DNA of 64,000 nt from contig CALMUP010000009.1 in assembly GCA_937872895.1 (NCBI GenBank), forward strand, positions 310,001-374,000, read 5' to 3'. Both the position numbers and the translations under genes were made by a program. The stretch is from an uncultured Verrucomicrobiota bacterium. Lineage in GTDB: Bacteria; Verrucomicrobiota; Kiritimatiellia; CAIVKH01. Numbering within the stretch: position 1 is the first letter of the stretch; each line of letters begins with the position of its first letter. This document shows, piece by piece, positions 49,830 to 59,838 of the stretch. The notes beneath the pieces were generated by a model. The model was not told the DNA's origin. It saw nothing but the letters and a program-made list of their open reading frames with translations, and made no database searches.

Positions 49830-49874
49830 ACCGGGAGCAGGGGCGGCAAGATCGGTTGATGGGGTGTGAGGGGA

Positions 49875-49923
49875 CAGGTGTCGGGGAGGAAGTATCCGGG
49901 TGTCGGGTGTCAGGTGTCGGGGA
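49875..49923. repeat. GTGTCGGG short direct repeats
   Basis: CAGGTGTCGGGGA occurs at 49875-49887 and again at 49911-49923, with GGGTGTCGGGTGT between. It is a small degenerate direct-repeat patch in non-coding DNA. Confidence 0.7.
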
Positions 49924-50146
49924 AGAGGGATACGGGCGTCTGTCCCACCTGTTTCCCATCCGCGGTGAGGTTCACACCAACGCCTGCGATGCAACATCCT
50001 CTCCCTGGAGGGGTGGCCGCAGGCCGGGGTGGGTGGCGCGGCGGTCCGTCCCCGATTGCCGACCTTCCTAATCCTCCGCGTAATCCCCAGGACGATGAGG
50101 ATGAGGATTGGGATTACGATGACGACCAGCCCCTTCCATCATCCAT

Positions 50147-50176
50147 CCCGCCCGAGGCGGATCCGCCTTAGGCGGG
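50147..50176. repeat. 30-bp nested palindrome around GGATCC
   Basis: CCCGCC, three bases, GGCGGATCCGCC, three bases, GGCGGG: all paired positions are perfect reverse complements. It lies 29 bp upstream of the -35 of the methyltransferase promoter. It could be a REP-like element or a hairpin ending transcription; no U-tract follows. Confidence 0.7.
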
Positions 50177-50259: not shown

Positions 50260-51096
50260 ATGACCGAAGGCAATTACAGCGCAGCCGATTTGAATCGCCA
50301 GTACAGCTCCCGCCACGCCACGCGCGCCGATGTGTACAAGGGCCTGCCCTTCGCGAATTATGGCTACTGGCCGCGTCCGGGTATGACCCTCGACGAAGCC
50401 TCCATCGCCCTTGTCGACCTCCTGGCCGGTGAACTTCAGCTCACTGCCGACACCACCATGCTAGAATGCGGCTGCGGCTACGGTGCCTCGGCCATCCATC
50501 TCGCCTCGACCTACCCGGTGAAACACATCTCCGGTCGCGACGTGACCGAAGTCCGTATTGCCACCGGTCAGGGCCTGGTCGCCGAGCGCAGCCTGCAGGA
50601 CAAGGTGGATCTCGCCGTCGGCGATGCCACCGTCATCGCGTTCCCGTCCGCGAATTTCGACCGTGTGCTCGCCATTGAGTGTGCATTCCACTTCAATACC
50701 CGCGAGCAGTTCTTCCACGAAGCCTTCCGCGTCCTCAAGCCCGGAGGCCGTCTGGTGACGACCGATATCGTCATCGCCGCCCACATCGACATCCCGACCC
50801 AGACCATCGAAGACCTGCGCCGCCACATGTCCGCGCAGATCAAGATGATCCCCGACGCGAACCTGTATAACGAAAAGGACTTCCGCGCCAAGCTGGCCGC
50901 TGCCGGTTTTGCCGACGTGAAGATCTATTCGATCTCCGACAAGAACATCCGCCAGTTTGCCGACGCGATGGAGAAGAGCGCCGAGACCGCCCCTCCGGAA
51001 ACCCGCCACAAGCGCATCATGTACGCGAACTCGTTCCGCGAGGAGTTCCTGAAGGGTGCCGACTACATCGTTGTCAACGCCGCCAAGCCGGCGTGA
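50260..51096 (+). CDS. SAM-dependent methyltransferase, class I
   Basis: 278 aa from ATG 50260 with a strong GAGGAG. Motif I is MLECGCGYGASAIHLAS (residues 68-84). VDLAVGDATVIAFPSANFDR is the acidic-loop and motif II region, and FHEAFRVLKPGGRLVTTDIV is motif III. The plan resembles small-molecule methyltransferases that act on lipids, quinones or natural products, as the LKPGG block and the preceding AIECAFHFNTREQFF suggest. No signal peptide. It is followed 34 bp downstream by the PqqD/M50/HlyD fusion, a possible export partner, but a joint pathway is only inferred. Confidence 0.88.
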   Translation: MTEGNYSAADLNRQYSSRHATRADVYKGLPFANYGYWPRPGMTLDEASIALVDLLAGELQLTADTTMLECGCGYGASAIHLASTYPVKHISGRDVTEVRIATGQGLVAERSLQDKVDLAVGDATVIAFPSANFDRVLAIECAFHFNTREQFFHEAFRVLKPGGRLVTTDIVIAAHIDIPTQTIEDLRRHMSAQIKMIPDANLYNEKDFRAKLAAAGFADVKIYSISDKNIRQFADAMEKSAETAPPETRHKRIMYANSFREEFLKGADYIVVNAAKPA

Positions 51097-51130: not shown

Positions 51131-53443
51131 ATGAATCCGAGCGACTCCAAACCGGCTTTTCGCTCCGACCTCGAGATCCTGGCCCAACCCGCACCTGGCC
51201 AACCCGACCGCCACCTCGTCAAGGATCCGCGCTCCGGGCGTATTCTTGAGCTCTCCGCCAAGGACCTGTTCCTTTGCCGGCAGATGGACAGCGCGACCAG
51301 CATCGCCGCCATTTCCGACCGCTTTCGCGAGACCTTCCACCTCGCGATCCGCACGGACCAGGTCGCCGCATTCGCAGAGTCACTCCGAGCCGAAGGCTTC
51401 CTTGCCGATGCCGCTGCCGAGGAACGCACCTGGGATCGGATGAAGCCGTTACCGCTGCCCTTTGACCGTTGGTTGCCCGCCATCGCCCGTGCCTTCGGTC
51501 CGCTCGCGGGGTGGCCACTGCTGCTCCTGCAACTCCTCCTGCTGCTCCCCGGCGCGGTGCTGCTCGTCCAGCATGCACCGTTGATCGGATACTACCTGTT
51601 CGACCTCCTGACCCACCTTGAAATCGCCGGTGCTGCCGGATTCAGTTCCATCTTCTCCCTCGGTTCCATCATGCAGATCGCGGTATTCTTCACCGTGATC
51701 CCGTTCCTGCGCGAGATTGCCAAGGGTATCGCCGCCTGTCATTTCGGGGTGCGCGTTCCCGAAGTGCGGTATGGCTGGTTCATGCGGTTCATCCCGCGTT
51801 GTACGGCCGCGCTCCATGGCCTCGTCCGGCTGGAAAAAGGAGAGCAGATCCGTGTGCTCGCCGCCGGACTGCGCCTTGAACTCGTCGTCTTCGCGCTCGG
51901 CTTGATCGGTACGGCCCTGTTCGTCGACAGCAATCCGGTGAATGACCTGTCACGCAACCTGGCCATCGGTGCCGCCCTGCGGTTCCTGCTTACGGCCAAT
52001 CCGCTGGGCGAAGGCGATGGCGGGGCCATTGCCGGACTGCTCGTCGATCAGCCTGACCTCCACCGCCGGTCCGTACGCGCCTTCCGCGCCTGGCTGTTCC
52101 GCCGCCCGATGCCCGAGCCACTCACCGATCAACGCCGCCGCAACTTCATCGTGTGGGGCGCTTTATCCGATCTGGCGGTCCAAGGAATAACCGTTGCATT
52201 GCTCGCGTTGTTGGGGTATCTGCTGGTGCAGTGGATGGGAGGTCTCGGCGCCGTACTCTCCCTCCTCCTCGTGCTGTTGAAGTACGAGGATGCCCTGCGA
52301 GCAAGCTGGCGCCGTAGCACAGGAACCGCCATGGCCCGATCCGAGCAGACATCAACGAAATCCTTTTGGTTGCGCACCCTGTTGGTCGTCGTGGTGCTCA
52401 TCGTTATCGGCTTGATCCCCTATCCCTACGAAGTCAGTGGTGAATTCCGCACCCAGCCGGTGGCCCAACGCGAAGTCCGTGCGGAGGTCGCGGCGTTGAT
52501 CGAGGCCATCCCGGTCGTGGAAGGCGGCGAGGTCAAGGCGGGTGATGTGATCGCGCAACTTTCCACCCGCCTGTTGGAAAAGGATCTGGAACTCAACCGG
52601 GCCGCGCTGCGCAAGGAGACCGAGCACTTGCGGGCTATGGAGGCCGGAGCGCGGCCCGAGGACATCGCCCAACTCGAACAGGCGGTCAAGTCGATTGAGA
52701 CGAAACTTCGATTCAGCGAGGAAAACCTGCGTCGCTCGGCGGACCTGATCGAGAAAAACCATATCTCGCAGCAGGAGTATCAGAATGTCCTGCAGGTACG
52801 GGATCTTGATATCGAAACACTGGAAAGCGCCCGGCTCGCCCTGGCCTCGGCCCGGGCCGGGGTGCGCAAGGAAGAGATTGAGGCCCAGCGTGCCGTGGTG
52901 GACAGCCTGGCCATCGCCCTCAAGCACCTGGAGGACGACCTAGCCCGCACCACCATCCGTAGCCCGATCGATGGCCGAGTGGTCACGATGTACGTCCAGG
53001 GACGGGTGGGGCAGCAGGCTGTTCCGGGTGATGTGATTGCCGTCGTGGAGGATACCTCCCGCACCATCGTTCGAATCGCACTGCCCGAGCCTTACAGTGG
53101 CTTGGTCGGGGCGGGCTCCTCGGTGCGGATCCGTCCGTGGGCCTATGCCAACCGCAGCTTCACCGGCAAGGTCTCGTCCGTGTTGCCCATCGTGATCGAC
53201 AAGAACCGCGATTTGATGCAACAGGCCTCGAACGAACAGGAGCGAGGGATGGTCCGCAACCTGAATATGCCCGAGGAACGCATCGTTCCCGTGCTTGCCG
53301 AGATCGACAACGAAGGTGTTCCCTTCCGCTCCGAAATGACGGGATTTGCCAAGATTGATGCCGGCTGGAAGCCCTTGGGATATGCCTTTCTCCAGCCGGT
53401 GATCCGCTTCGTCACCGTCCAGGTCTGGTCCTGGATCCCCTGA
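51131..53443 (+). CDS. Fusion of PqqD-like domain, degenerate M50 membrane domain and HlyD-type adaptor
   Basis: 770 aa from ATG 51131. Residues 25-95 look PqqD-like (LVKDPRSGRILELSAKDLFL, IRTDQVAAFAESLRAEGFL). Residues 130-390 form a polytopic domain shaped like the M50 site-2 protease family, but where HExxH is expected the sequence reads REIAK (194-198, before GIAACHFGVRVPE). The second metal motif region NPLGEGDGG (290-298) is partly kept. A membrane helix near 414-430 leads to a HlyD adaptor with a long coiled coil (about 470-620) and a beta-barrel. It is probably an inactive peptidase scaffold joined to an export adaptor; the cargo is unknown. The upstream methyltransferase is likely co-transcribed. 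Confidence 0.8.
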   Translation: MNPSDSKPAFRSDLEILAQPAPGQPDRHLVKDPRSGRILELSAKDLFLCRQMDSATSIAAISDRFRETFHLAIRTDQVAAFAESLRAEGFLADAAAEERTWDRMKPLPLPFDRWLPAIARAFGPLAGWPLLLLQLLLLLPGAVLLVQHAPLIGYYLFDLLTHLEIAGAAGFSSIFSLGSIMQIAVFFTVIPFLREIAKGIAACHFGVRVPEVRYGWFMRFIPRCTAALHGLVRLEKGEQIRVLAAGLRLELVVFALGLIGTALFVDSNPVNDLSRNLAIGAALRFLLTANPLGEGDGGAIAGLLVDQPDLHRRSVRAFRAWLFRRPMPEPLTDQRRRNFIVWGALSDLAVQGITVALLALLGYLLVQWMGGLGAVLSLLLVLLKYEDALRASWRRSTGTAMARSEQTSTKSFWLRTLLVVVVLIVIGLIPYPYEVSGEFRTQPVAQREVRAEVAALIEAIPVVEGGEVKAGDVIAQLSTRLLEKDLELNRAALRKETEHLRAMEAGARPEDIAQLEQAVKSIETKLRFSEENLRRSADLIEKNHISQQEYQNVLQVRDLDIETLESARLALASARAGVRKEEIEAQRAVVDSLAIALKHLEDDLARTTIRSPIDGRVVTMYVQGRVGQQAVPGDVIAVVEDTSRTIVRIALPEPYSGLVGAGSSVRIRPWAYANRSFTGKVSSVLPIVIDKNRDLMQQASNEQERGMVRNLNMPEERIVPVLAEIDNEGVPFRSEMTGFAKIDAGWKPLGYAFLQPVIRFVTVQVWSWIP

Positions 53444-56749: not shown

Positions 56750-57619
56750 TTAGGTGGCTGCTCGCAGCCGGTGCCAGCAGGCGAGGGGTGGGTCGGTGAT
56801 CGCGCATGGCTGGATGCGGCGCCCCTCTGCCCTCGGGTGGTGTCCAGCCATCACCGTGCGGATGAACAACTCGGAGCCGATGACCAAGCCCTCGGTCCAG
56901 TAGCGAATGCGCCCAATCACACCCTTCGAAACGCCGGGCGGGTTGGATGGCGATGCGCCATCCAGCGTACCGTCCAGAATCTGTTGAACGGCATCAATGT
57001 TATCCGCGCCAAGCAGCGGAAGAATGTGTTGCCGGACATGGTCGGCGTACGGGTGGCGTCCGGTTTGCTTCCATGCCCCGTAAGAGCCGAACCGGTAAGC
57101 CCCGGCACGCTTGACCAATCCGGCACGAACCGGATTGTTTTCGATGTAACGCCAGCAGGCCATGACGGCACCCGCTTCGAGGATCGTGTGCTTGAAGCGG
57201 TCTGCCCACAAACCGCCTCGTCGCCGAACGGTGCGTGTGCGGTTGAACCACGCAGTGAAAAGTTGCTGGAGGTGTCGCATGAACCAGCTGATGTTGCGGG
57301 TGCGTTGCTGCCATGACTGGCACTGGGGGCTGTCGGGCTCCAGTTCCTTCCGGCCCCGGTGAAACGCGCGGTAACGGCGGCACATCTCCGCGGATGAGAA
57401 GTGTCCGGCCGGGGCATGGAGAAGCAGGTGGTAATGGTTGGACATGACCTGATAAGCCACGACGTGAACGCCGTAGAGTAGGCTGACCTTGCGGAGTATT
57501 CGGAGAAATTGCTCTTTCTCGACATCGCCAAAGGGCCGGTCTCGGACGGTGCCGGCGGTCCGATTGTAGCAATGGTACCAAGTGTCGCAGTGATCGATCT
57601 TGATGCGTGCGGTTCTCAT
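56750..57619 (-). CDS. REP-associated tyrosine transposase (Y1_Tnp, IS200-like HUH family)
   Basis: 289 aa. The HUH motif is present as YQVMSNHYHLLLH (His62 and His64), and the family's GLWADRFKHTILE and RYIENNPVRAGLVKRAG motifs follow, with a YRFGSYGAWK stretch. This single-domain type (TnpA_REP) is chromosomal, acts as a single-strand nuclease on REP or hairpin sequences, and normally has no partner TnpB, as here. No flanking terminal repeats or target duplication could be recognised. REP-like hairpins are present at 44420-44532. Confidence 0.9.
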   Translation of the reverse strand: MRTARIKIDHCDTWYHCYNRTAGTVRDRPFGDVEKEQFLRILRKVSLLYGVHVVAYQVMSNHYHLLLHAPAGHFSSAEMCRRYRAFHRGRKELEPDSPQCQSWQQRTRNISWFMRHLQQLFTAWFNRTRTVRRRGGLWADRFKHTILEAGAVMACWRYIENNPVRAGLVKRAGAYRFGSYGAWKQTGRHPYADHVRQHILPLLGADNIDAVQQILDGTLDGASPSNPPGVSKGVIGRIRYWTEGLVIGSELFIRTVMAGHHPRAEGRRIQPCAITDPPLACWHRLRAAT

Positions 57620-57835: not shown

Positions 57836-57855
57836 GGGTGGGAAGGAATACGTTT

Positions 57856-58446
57856 ATGCCACGGAAACGAACAATGGATGGGAAGGTGCAGGCGTTGCGG
57901 CGGTTTTACCGGGAGGAGGCGCGGGTGCCGACTTACACGGAGATGCTGGCCTTGCTGGGGTACCGGTCGAAGAATGCGGTGCACCGGTTGGTGGGGGCGC
58001 TGGAGGGGTTGGGTTATGTGCGCCGCGGGCCGACCGGCAAGCTGGTGTTTACCCGGCGGTTGACCGGGTCCATCAAGATCCTCGGACTGGTCCAAGCCGG
58101 ATTTCCTTCGCCGGCCGAAGAGGAGCTGGTCGATGTCTTGAGCCTTGATGAGTACCTGGTGCGACGACCAGAGGCAACGTTCATGCTGACGGTGAGTGGC
58201 GATTCGATGATCGAGGCCGGTATCCACCCCGGAGATCTGGTGCTGATCGAGAAGGGACGCACCCCGAAGTGCAACGACATCGTCATCGCTCAAGTCGATG
58301 GCGAATGGACGCTGAAGTACTACCAGAAGGACCGCAAGGGATGTGTACGGCTCGAACCCGCGAACAAGAACTACGCCACCATCGTTCCGAAGCAGTCGCT
58401 GGCCATCGGTGGTGTGGTCCGTGCGGTGGTGCGAAAGTACGATTGA
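57856..58446 (+). CDS. lexA: LexA-like SOS repressor
   Basis: 196 aa from ATG 57856, with GGAAGGA upstream. The N-terminal winged helix-turn-helix is MLALLGYRSKNAVHRLVGAL plus GLGYVRRGPTGKLVF. The cleavage site is Ala81-Gly82 in LVQAGFPSP. The peptidase domain has the catalytic Ser117 in TVSGDSMIEAGIHPGD and Lys154 in EWTLKYYQKD. All elements for RecA-stimulated self-cleavage are present. It is followed by a Y-family polymerase gene, so the pair forms a self-regulated SOS mutagenesis unit. Whether it is the cell's main LexA or a cassette-specific paralogue cannot be told from one window. Confidence 0.9.
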   Translation: MPRKRTMDGKVQALRRFYREEARVPTYTEMLALLGYRSKNAVHRLVGALEGLGYVRRGPTGKLVFTRRLTGSIKILGLVQAGFPSPAEEELVDVLSLDEYLVRRPEATFMLTVSGDSMIEAGIHPGDLVLIEKGRTPKCNDIVIAQVDGEWTLKYYQKDRKGCVRLEPANKNYATIVPKQSLAIGGVVRAVVRKYD

Positions 58447-58491: not shown

Positions 58492-59838
58492 ATGAACATC
58501 CACGGGAACGATGCGAATTCTATGTCCCCCGGTTGCCGGGCGGGGTTTACCCTTTCCTCGTTTCCCAAGGCGATGGTGCATTTGGATGGCGATGCGTTTT
58601 TTGCCGCGGTGGAGCAGGCGATCCATCCGGAGTGGAAAGGGAAACCGGTGGTGACCGGGAAGGAACGCGGCATCATCGCCTGCGCGAGTTACGAGGCGAA
58701 GGCGATGGGCATCAAGCGCGGGGTGCGCCTGCACGAGGCGCAGGCGATGTGCCGCGACCTGATCGTGGTCCCGAGCGACTACGAGACCTACTGCCTCTAT
58801 TCGAAACGCATGTTCAACATCATGCGCCGGTTCACCCCGGTGGTGGAGGAAAGCTCGATCGATGAGGGGTTCGCCGACCTGACCGGTCTGCGCCGGGTGT
58901 TCCATACCTCCTATGTCGAGATCGCGCGCCGGATGAAGCAGGCCATCGCCGACGAGCTGGACATCACCGTGTCGATCGGCCTCAGCCTGTCGAAGGGTCT
59001 GTGCAAGCTCGCCTCGAAGCACCACAAGCCGAACGGCCTGACCGCGGTGGCCGGCCACAAGATCCACGAGTTCCTCCCGCGTTTTCCGCTGGAGGAGGTC
59101 TGGGGTTTCGGCCCGAACATCACCGCGTTCCTGCGCAAGCAGGGCCTGGCCACCGCGTATGACTTCACCCGGATGTCCGAGGCGTGGGCGGGGAAGAAGC
59201 TGGGCAAGACCGGTCGCGAGATCTGGAATGAACTGCGCGGCAACGCGGTATACCCGATATCGACCGAGGAGAAAACCGACTACGCGACGATCAGCAAGTG
59301 CAAGACCTTCACGGCGCCGTCGTCCGACCCCGACTTCATCCACGCCAAACTCGTCCGCAACGTCGAGTCCGCCTTCATCAAGGCCCGCCGCTACCGACTC
59401 CGTGCGCGGCTGCTCTACGTCGCGCTGCGCACGAAGGATTACCAGCAGCGCGGCGTCGAGGCGCAATTGAGCCGCGCGACCTGCACGCCGCAGGAGGTCC
59501 TTCCGTTGGTGCGGCGCATGTTCGATCAAGTCTACCTGCCCGGCATGGAATACCGCACCACCATGGTGGTGCTGGGAAAGCTGGAGGATGACCGGGTGGA
59601 CCAGTTCGAGCTGTTCGAGGACCGGGTGCGCATCGACCGCCTGCGTGAGGTGGCCCGCGCCGCCGACGACATCGCCGAGCGCTACGGAAAACATGCGGTA
59701 TGCCTCGGCACCGGGTTGCACCTCGGGCAGCACCGCATCACCGAACGCGACGAGAAACCGTTGCGCCGCAGCGACCTGCTCCCCGGCGAAACCTCGCGCC
59801 AGCGGCTGAACATCCCGAAGCTCGATATCCGCGTCTGA
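58492..59838 (+). CDS. dinB: Y-family DNA polymerase (DinB/UmuC type)
   Basis: 448 aa. An extra N-terminal stretch of about 28 residues precedes the catalytic core. Palm motifs: MVHLDGDAFFAAVEQ (Asp32) and ESSIDEGFADLTG (Asp124, Glu125). The finger region has ASYEAKAMGIKRGVRL. The thumb has WGFGPNITAFLRKQG, and the little-finger domain follows. QFELF (371-375) fits the sliding-clamp-binding pattern QxxLF but lies inside the little-finger region rather than at the tail. It performs translesion synthesis. It is 45 bp downstream of the lexA-like gene and should be induced with it. Confidence 0.92.
   Translation: MNIHGNDANSMSPGCRAGFTLSSFPKAMVHLDGDAFFAAVEQAIHPEWKGKPVVTGKERGIIACASYEAKAMGIKRGVRLHEAQAMCRDLIVVPSDYETYCLYSKRMFNIMRRFTPVVEESSIDEGFADLTGLRRVFHTSYVEIARRMKQAIADELDITVSIGLSLSKGLCKLASKHHKPNGLTAVAGHKIHEFLPRFPLEEVWGFGPNITAFLRKQGLATAYDFTRMSEAWAGKKLGKTGREIWNELRGNAVYPISTEEKTDYATISKCKTFTAPSSDPDFIHAKLVRNVESAFIKARRYRLRARLLYVALRTKDYQQRGVEAQLSRATCTPQEVLPLVRRMFDQVYLPGMEYRTTMVVLGKLEDDRVDQFELFEDRVRIDRLREVARAADDIAERYGKHAVCLGTGLHLGQHRITERDEKPLRRSDLLPGETSRQRLNIPKLDIRV

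Follow-up and report, generated by a model that had tools for sequence, protein, structure and literature searches.

Do the M50-HlyD fusions found in SecA-linked, type I-like modules work as proteases, or do they serve as membrane pores or scaffolds? This question has been open since 2015, when Kamneva, Poudel and Ward reported modules that combine a secondary SecA with HlyD, GAF-HlyD and M50-HlyD proteins (PMC4452313). In that work the M50 protein was proposed as a possible membrane pore (PMC4452313). The gene considered here codes for a fusion of this kind in which the peptidase motif HExxH is missing, and we asked what function such a protein could have. It was found in a stretch of 64,000 nucleotides (the window) on contig C9 of the 3.87 Mb genome, in 51 contigs, of an uncultured Verrucomicrobiota bacterium (G000). 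The reading frame is intact, encodes 770 aa and has one stop, at its end. Its features are collected in Table 1.

Table 1. Positions in the window of the fusion gene, its encoded domains and motifs, and the adjacent methyltransferase gene
Feature	Position	Strand	Basis or remark
Class I SAM methyltransferase, directly upstream	50260..51096	+	Pfam Methyltransf_11 2.3e-17
PqqD/RRE–M50–HlyD fusion, pseudo-M50 (P0001)	51131..53443	+	770 aa; open frame, full-length orthologues in two genera
PqqD/RRE-like winged-helix domain, residues 6-96	51146..51418	+	fold and profile matches
M50-like polytopic domain, residues 108-430	51452..52420	+	profile-profile and fold matches
REIAK at HExxH position, residues 194-198	51710..51724	+	alignments; RELAK in both orthologues
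NPLGEGDG at NPLLRFDG (third ligand) position, residues 290-297	51998..52021	+	alignments; Asp296 retained
HlyD lipoyl, hairpin and barrel region, residues 440-700	52448..53230	+	Pfam HlyD_3, HlyD_D23
Long two-helix hairpin, residues 477-606	52559..52948	+	more than twice the length in HExxH homologues
RLS motif (TolC-docking) RSADLIEKNHIS, residues 535-546, at the hairpin tip	52733..52768	+	pattern RxxxLxxxxxxS

Domain architecture and the M50-like metal site

Pfam recognised only the HlyD part of the window protein, with matches to HlyD_3 (3.6e-13; 50.6 bits for a cut-off of 22.2), HlyD_D23 (43.1 for a cut-off of 30) and Biotin_lipoyl_2, in agreement with the complete HlyD half described in a first-pass annotation made from the DNA letters. 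Neither M50 nor PqqD was called, and both assignments are therefore based on profile-profile comparison and fold. The membrane domain matched active M50-HlyD proteins with an hhalign probability of 100 and an E-value of 2e-39, the PqqD-like domain matched the same region of the active homologues at 2e-12, and the two domains together gave 5.8e-31. In one orthologue, PF05402 (PqqD) was found at 1.8e-4, slightly below its threshold (22.2 bits vs a cut-off of 23.4). An orthologue also matched NF041824, the NCBIfam model of daptide intramembrane metalloproteases, at 1.6e-14 over residues 30-383, with a score of 53.9 bits that stays well below the cut-off of 300; the active homologues matched it at 1e-34 to 1e-58, and the window protein itself was absent from its matches. 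PADLOC gave no defence match for the window protein, and Rfam gave nothing at gathering score within the window.

A full-length structure model built from three sequences had a mean pLDDT of 54, too weak for a fold search, and the search was done with a model of residues 1-432 of modest confidence (mean pLDDT 61). The N-terminal domain of this model resembled lasso-peptide B1/RRE leader-binding proteins (Z 10.6, 10.1 and 9.7) and PqqD (Z 7.5 and 5.7), and together with the near-threshold PF05402 match this favours the PqqD-like N-terminus of the first-pass annotation. The membrane core, around residues 178-306, matched RseP (Z 9.1 and 8.4), SpoIVFB (8.7) and S2P (7.8); Z values below about 13 can be fortuitous for helical bundles, and the leading membrane matches are nevertheless M50 proteases, in agreement with the sequence evidence. 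The profile comparison and the model thus both assign the M50 / site-2 protease fold to the membrane domain.

The first-pass annotation had also placed REIAK where HExxH should stand and NPLGEGDGG at the second metal motif. An alignment with active relatives, M50-HlyD fusions carrying HExxH and NPxx[RK]xD[GA], confirmed both positions: REIAK lies exactly on HExxH and NPLGEGDG on NPLLRFDG, and the spacing between the motifs is identical, 96 residues, in the window protein (194/290) and in the active homologue L037 (211/307). The orthologues carry RELAK and MPxGRQDG, so in 3/3 of these proteins, hereafter the dead group, R-x-x-x-K stands in place of the zinc ligands H-x-x-x-H, with the Asp of the third ligand kept. 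A scan of the three sequences found neither an HE dipeptide nor HxxEH, which leaves no room for a displaced HExxH; histidines are few and none stands at a ligand position. From the HExxH and distal Asp of an active M50 peptidase, the window protein has only Asp296. All 32 other phylum homologues of the final set keep HExxH.

The motif R-E-x-A-K-G and the Asp are invariant across three genera at about 40% identity, which excludes chance and argues for constraint; judged from these sequences, the lost site is a fixed, conserved state and not a decaying one. A peptidase that relies on a different metal site, or on no metal at all, would fit the retention of Glu195 and Asp296 in all three members and of part of the NP..DG motif, but it is very unlikely, both metal-binding histidines having given way to fixed positive charges in the three genera.

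Relatives of the protein and the HlyD hairpin

Full-length orthologues were found in two other genera of the same family, on G006:C71 (43% identity) and G004:C212 (38%), and no orthologue was found in the other genome of the window's genus (G001). A profile of the three PqqD–membrane halves detected relatives in 79 of the 388 phylum genomes, the best one outside the group at 5e-29; the relatives inspected were HExxH-bearing M50-HlyD fusions. In the tree the dead group (n=3, two of the genomes being 86-87% complete) forms one clade with support 100/100 on a long stem of 1.77 changes per column, and the length of the branches restricts any statement on its attachment point. This topology gives the dead group one origin. 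A wider search of genome contigs with the single protein returned no relatives, and the same search with the three-member alignment returned the two known orthologues and stand-alone HlyDs, nothing else. Viral contigs contained no relatives and plasmids HlyD matches only.

The HlyD half of the dead group contains a hairpin that is missing from the aligned active homologues. Residues 482-606 comprise 124 residues in the three dead proteins vs 52-56 in the alignable active homologues, the rows L056, L066 and L073 being short, truncated or poorly aligned at this place and L056 and L066 uninformative there. The extra segment is predicted to form two helices, 477-541 and 547-606 (pLDDT mostly 64-89, in the weak full-length model), which meet at 541-547, where the window protein carries RSADLIEKNHIS, an exact match to the pattern RxxxLxxxxxxS. 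The motif is also exact in the G006 orthologue, and in the G004 orthologue the Ser is changed to Ala. The RLS/RLT motif contacts TolC in MacA, AcrA, MexA and HlyD, and Ala in place of Ser is partly tolerated in MacA (PMC3391258). The active homologues with an alignable hairpin region lack the motif as well. The whole HlyD half scored higher with stand-alone HlyDs (100.6 vs 53.9 bits), and the barrel alone gave no discrimination (35.0 vs 29.1 bits). The long hairpin of the dead group may have been gained, for example by exchange of the HlyD half, or kept; the sequences are consistent with either.

Partner genes and the RiPP question

In G006, the genes follow one another in the order phosphodiesterase (PF01663), propeller–methyltransferase, two PHB-depolymerase-type esterases, TPR protein, dead M50-HlyD and, convergent to it, a TolC homologue, with the TPR gene overlapping the start of the M50-HlyD gene by a few bases. 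The order is the same in G004, where a contig break falls inside the TPR gene: the end of G004:C455 holds the propeller–methyltransferase, an esterase and the TPR gene, and the start of C212 the rest of the TPR gene, M50-HlyD and TolC. In G000 the partner parts are scattered over three contigs. Phosphodiesterase, propeller–methyltransferase, esterase and TPR genes are on C5, an esterase and the TolC gene are on C22 beside thiD and comEC, as in G004, and M50-HlyD is on C9. Operon support is lost in this genome, because TolC, the propeller–methyltransferase/TPR genes and M50-HlyD are on three contigs.

Strong matches to M50-HlyD, the TolC homologue and the propeller–methyltransferase occurred in exactly the same three of the eight family genomes, observations that are not fully independent since the genes are linked in two of them. 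Across the phylum, the propeller–methyltransferase was found only in those 3 of 388 genomes, plus one weak partial match. A weak propeller homologue in G394 was set aside: it is another protein, and its short contig carries no M50-HlyD gene. Neither an ATPase nor any other energising subunit turned up for the system of the dead protein. What is new in these data is the co-occurrence with a single TolC homologue and the propeller–methyltransferase, together with the long RLS-bearing hairpin.

A regulatory pseudoprotease, holding back substrates of active M50 proteins or a membrane-bound regulator in the manner of iRhoms or EGY3, with the link to TolC being secondary, appears improbable. Active M50 proteins are present in the same genome, and roles of this kind are known for other pseudoproteases (PMC9355673, PMC3149277), but transport is indicated by the strict co-occurrence with TolC and by a TolC-docking hairpin that only the dead group has. 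EGY3, a plant homologue of site-2 proteases that has been classed as a pseudoprotease (PMC9355673), is similar to the window protein in these respects; judged by its description, it differs in being a thylakoid protein reported only from plants and in not being an export adaptor.

As the first-pass annotation stated, a methyltransferase gene lies directly upstream of the fusion gene, ending 34 bp before it. Its product has no orthologue in G004 and G006 (best matches there, 23-32% identity), and as a conserved partner it was rejected; it is a lineage-specific neighbour. The methyltransferase and M50-HlyD pair follows holA-like and DUF3108 genes in the window, and in G001 other genes come after DUF3108. 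Further downstream, the window carries an IS200/Y1-type transposase gene (56750-57619, minus strand) and adjacent genes for a LexA/UmuD-like S24 protein (57838-58446) and a Y-family DNA polymerase (58492-59838). A separate observation concerns the methyltransferase domain of the propeller protein (L136:12040-14241, L138:1013-3403, L044:2199-4460), which looks degenerate in G000 and G004: in G000 the match covered only the second half of the Pfam model, in G004 there was no match, and in G006 nearly the full model was covered. As a speculation, the separate upstream methyltransferase could compensate for the degenerate domain in G000.

The RiPP context suggested in the first-pass annotation did not hold up. 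Maturation and export of a RiPP, in which the PqqD domain would recognise a leader, the methyltransferase modify the peptide and the HlyD half export it, would agree with the resemblance of the N-terminal domain to lasso-peptide RREs, with the adjacent methyltransferase and with the fact that, among NCBIfam models, the daptide intramembrane metalloprotease comes closest to the PqqD–M50 part. It is nonetheless quite unlikely, as leader cleavage would need the lost active site, and as the conserved partners are TolC, the propeller–methyltransferase, esterases and the TPR protein, with the methyltransferase next to the window gene not among them. No precursor peptide gene was recognised by ORF inspection in the G004 and G006 clusters, nor any RiPP maturase in that of G006. 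A radical-SAM gene of lysine-2,3-aminomutase type stands at the G004 contig edge, and the G006 cluster showed none. The short ORF 49866-50171 upstream of the pair was rejected as a precursor because part of it coincides with a dispersed repeat. This repeat, CTGGAGGGGTGGCCGCAGGCCGGGGTGGGTG (window 50005-50035), occurs at 19 genome places with at most 3 mismatches, and its reversed control at 0. Daptide MpaP (NF041824; PMC10036551), described as a leader-removing peptidase (PMC10036551), likewise has an RRE/PqqD domain followed by an M50 domain; unlike it, the window protein is without HExxH and fused to HlyD, and its surroundings yielded neither a precursor nor daptide enzymes.

A candidate export apparatus and its relation to SecA-linked modules

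The reading that we consider probable is that the dead M50 protein forms the inner-membrane and periplasmic section of an export apparatus that depends on TolC, a pseudoprotease acting as scaffold and adaptor. From the earlier proposal of a dead M50 protein as an adaptor scaffold, this retains what is supported by the dead site, the fold and the HlyD fusion, and drops the RiPP setting. The side chains of Arg and Lys would replace the charge of the metal and, together with Glu195 and Asp296, keep the pocket stable. The PqqD/RRE domain, presumably cytosolic, may bind a peptide segment that belongs to the cargo or to a partner in the cytosol, the dead M50 bundle would hold or pass the peptide at the membrane, and the HlyD half would oligomerise and dock on TolC. 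With membrane fusion proteins of the HlyD/MacA/EmrA type the window protein shares the lipoyl and barrel domains, the hairpin and the RLS motif; it differs in that its HlyD part is fused behind dead M50 and RRE-like domains.

A wider proposal, which we hold to be possible but rather doubtful, is a trans-envelope export or assembly route that needs no ABC, RND or SecA motor. In such a route the dead M50 domain would be the inner-membrane conduit and HlyD would sit on a dedicated TolC, the cytosolic phosphodiesterase, propeller–methyltransferase and TPR proteins would select, modify or drive the cargo, and surface esterases would process it.

The SecA_DEAD-associated type I-like module (PMC4452313) is similar in its M50-HlyD fusion, its TolC/OEP and HlyD components and its lack of an ABC transporter. 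Unlike that module, the dead protein has no protease centre and carries its own TolC-docking hairpin in the HlyD half, no GAF-HlyD partner was present in the clusters read, and the gene set includes the propeller–methyltransferase, esterases, TPR protein and phosphodiesterase. A short SecA accompanying the M50-HlyD gene was not found in the family genomes, which gave only canonical-type SecA frames or fragments, and G006 (87% complete) gave no SecA frames at all. A decaying remnant of a SecA-associated M50-HlyD secretion module would be in line with this absence and with the SecA/HlyD/GAF-HlyD/TolC modules in which active homologues sit, but it is extremely unlikely, as the frames are intact (770 aa) in three genera with RExAKG, DG and WSWIP invariant at about 40% identity, and as the docking hairpin is present in addition. 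The dead group looks instead like a natural separation of functions, with proteolysis lost, the transport parts kept and the TolC-docking hairpin present. It makes the protease-versus-pore question directly testable, and defines a gene set to seek in related genomes.

Two modules of active homologues illustrate the SecA-linked arrangement. The module at L037 contains TolC, HlyD, GAF-HlyD, M50-HlyD and a 654-aa SecA-like ATPase, and the one at L038 contains HlyD, M50-HlyD, SecA and a DUF11/SdrD-type surface protein. This surface protein (L038:2-3496), near the active M50-HlyD gene, is a possible cargo of a SecA-type module, as is a LEPR-XLL protein (L040:1-1170) encoded two frames from another active M50-HlyD gene.
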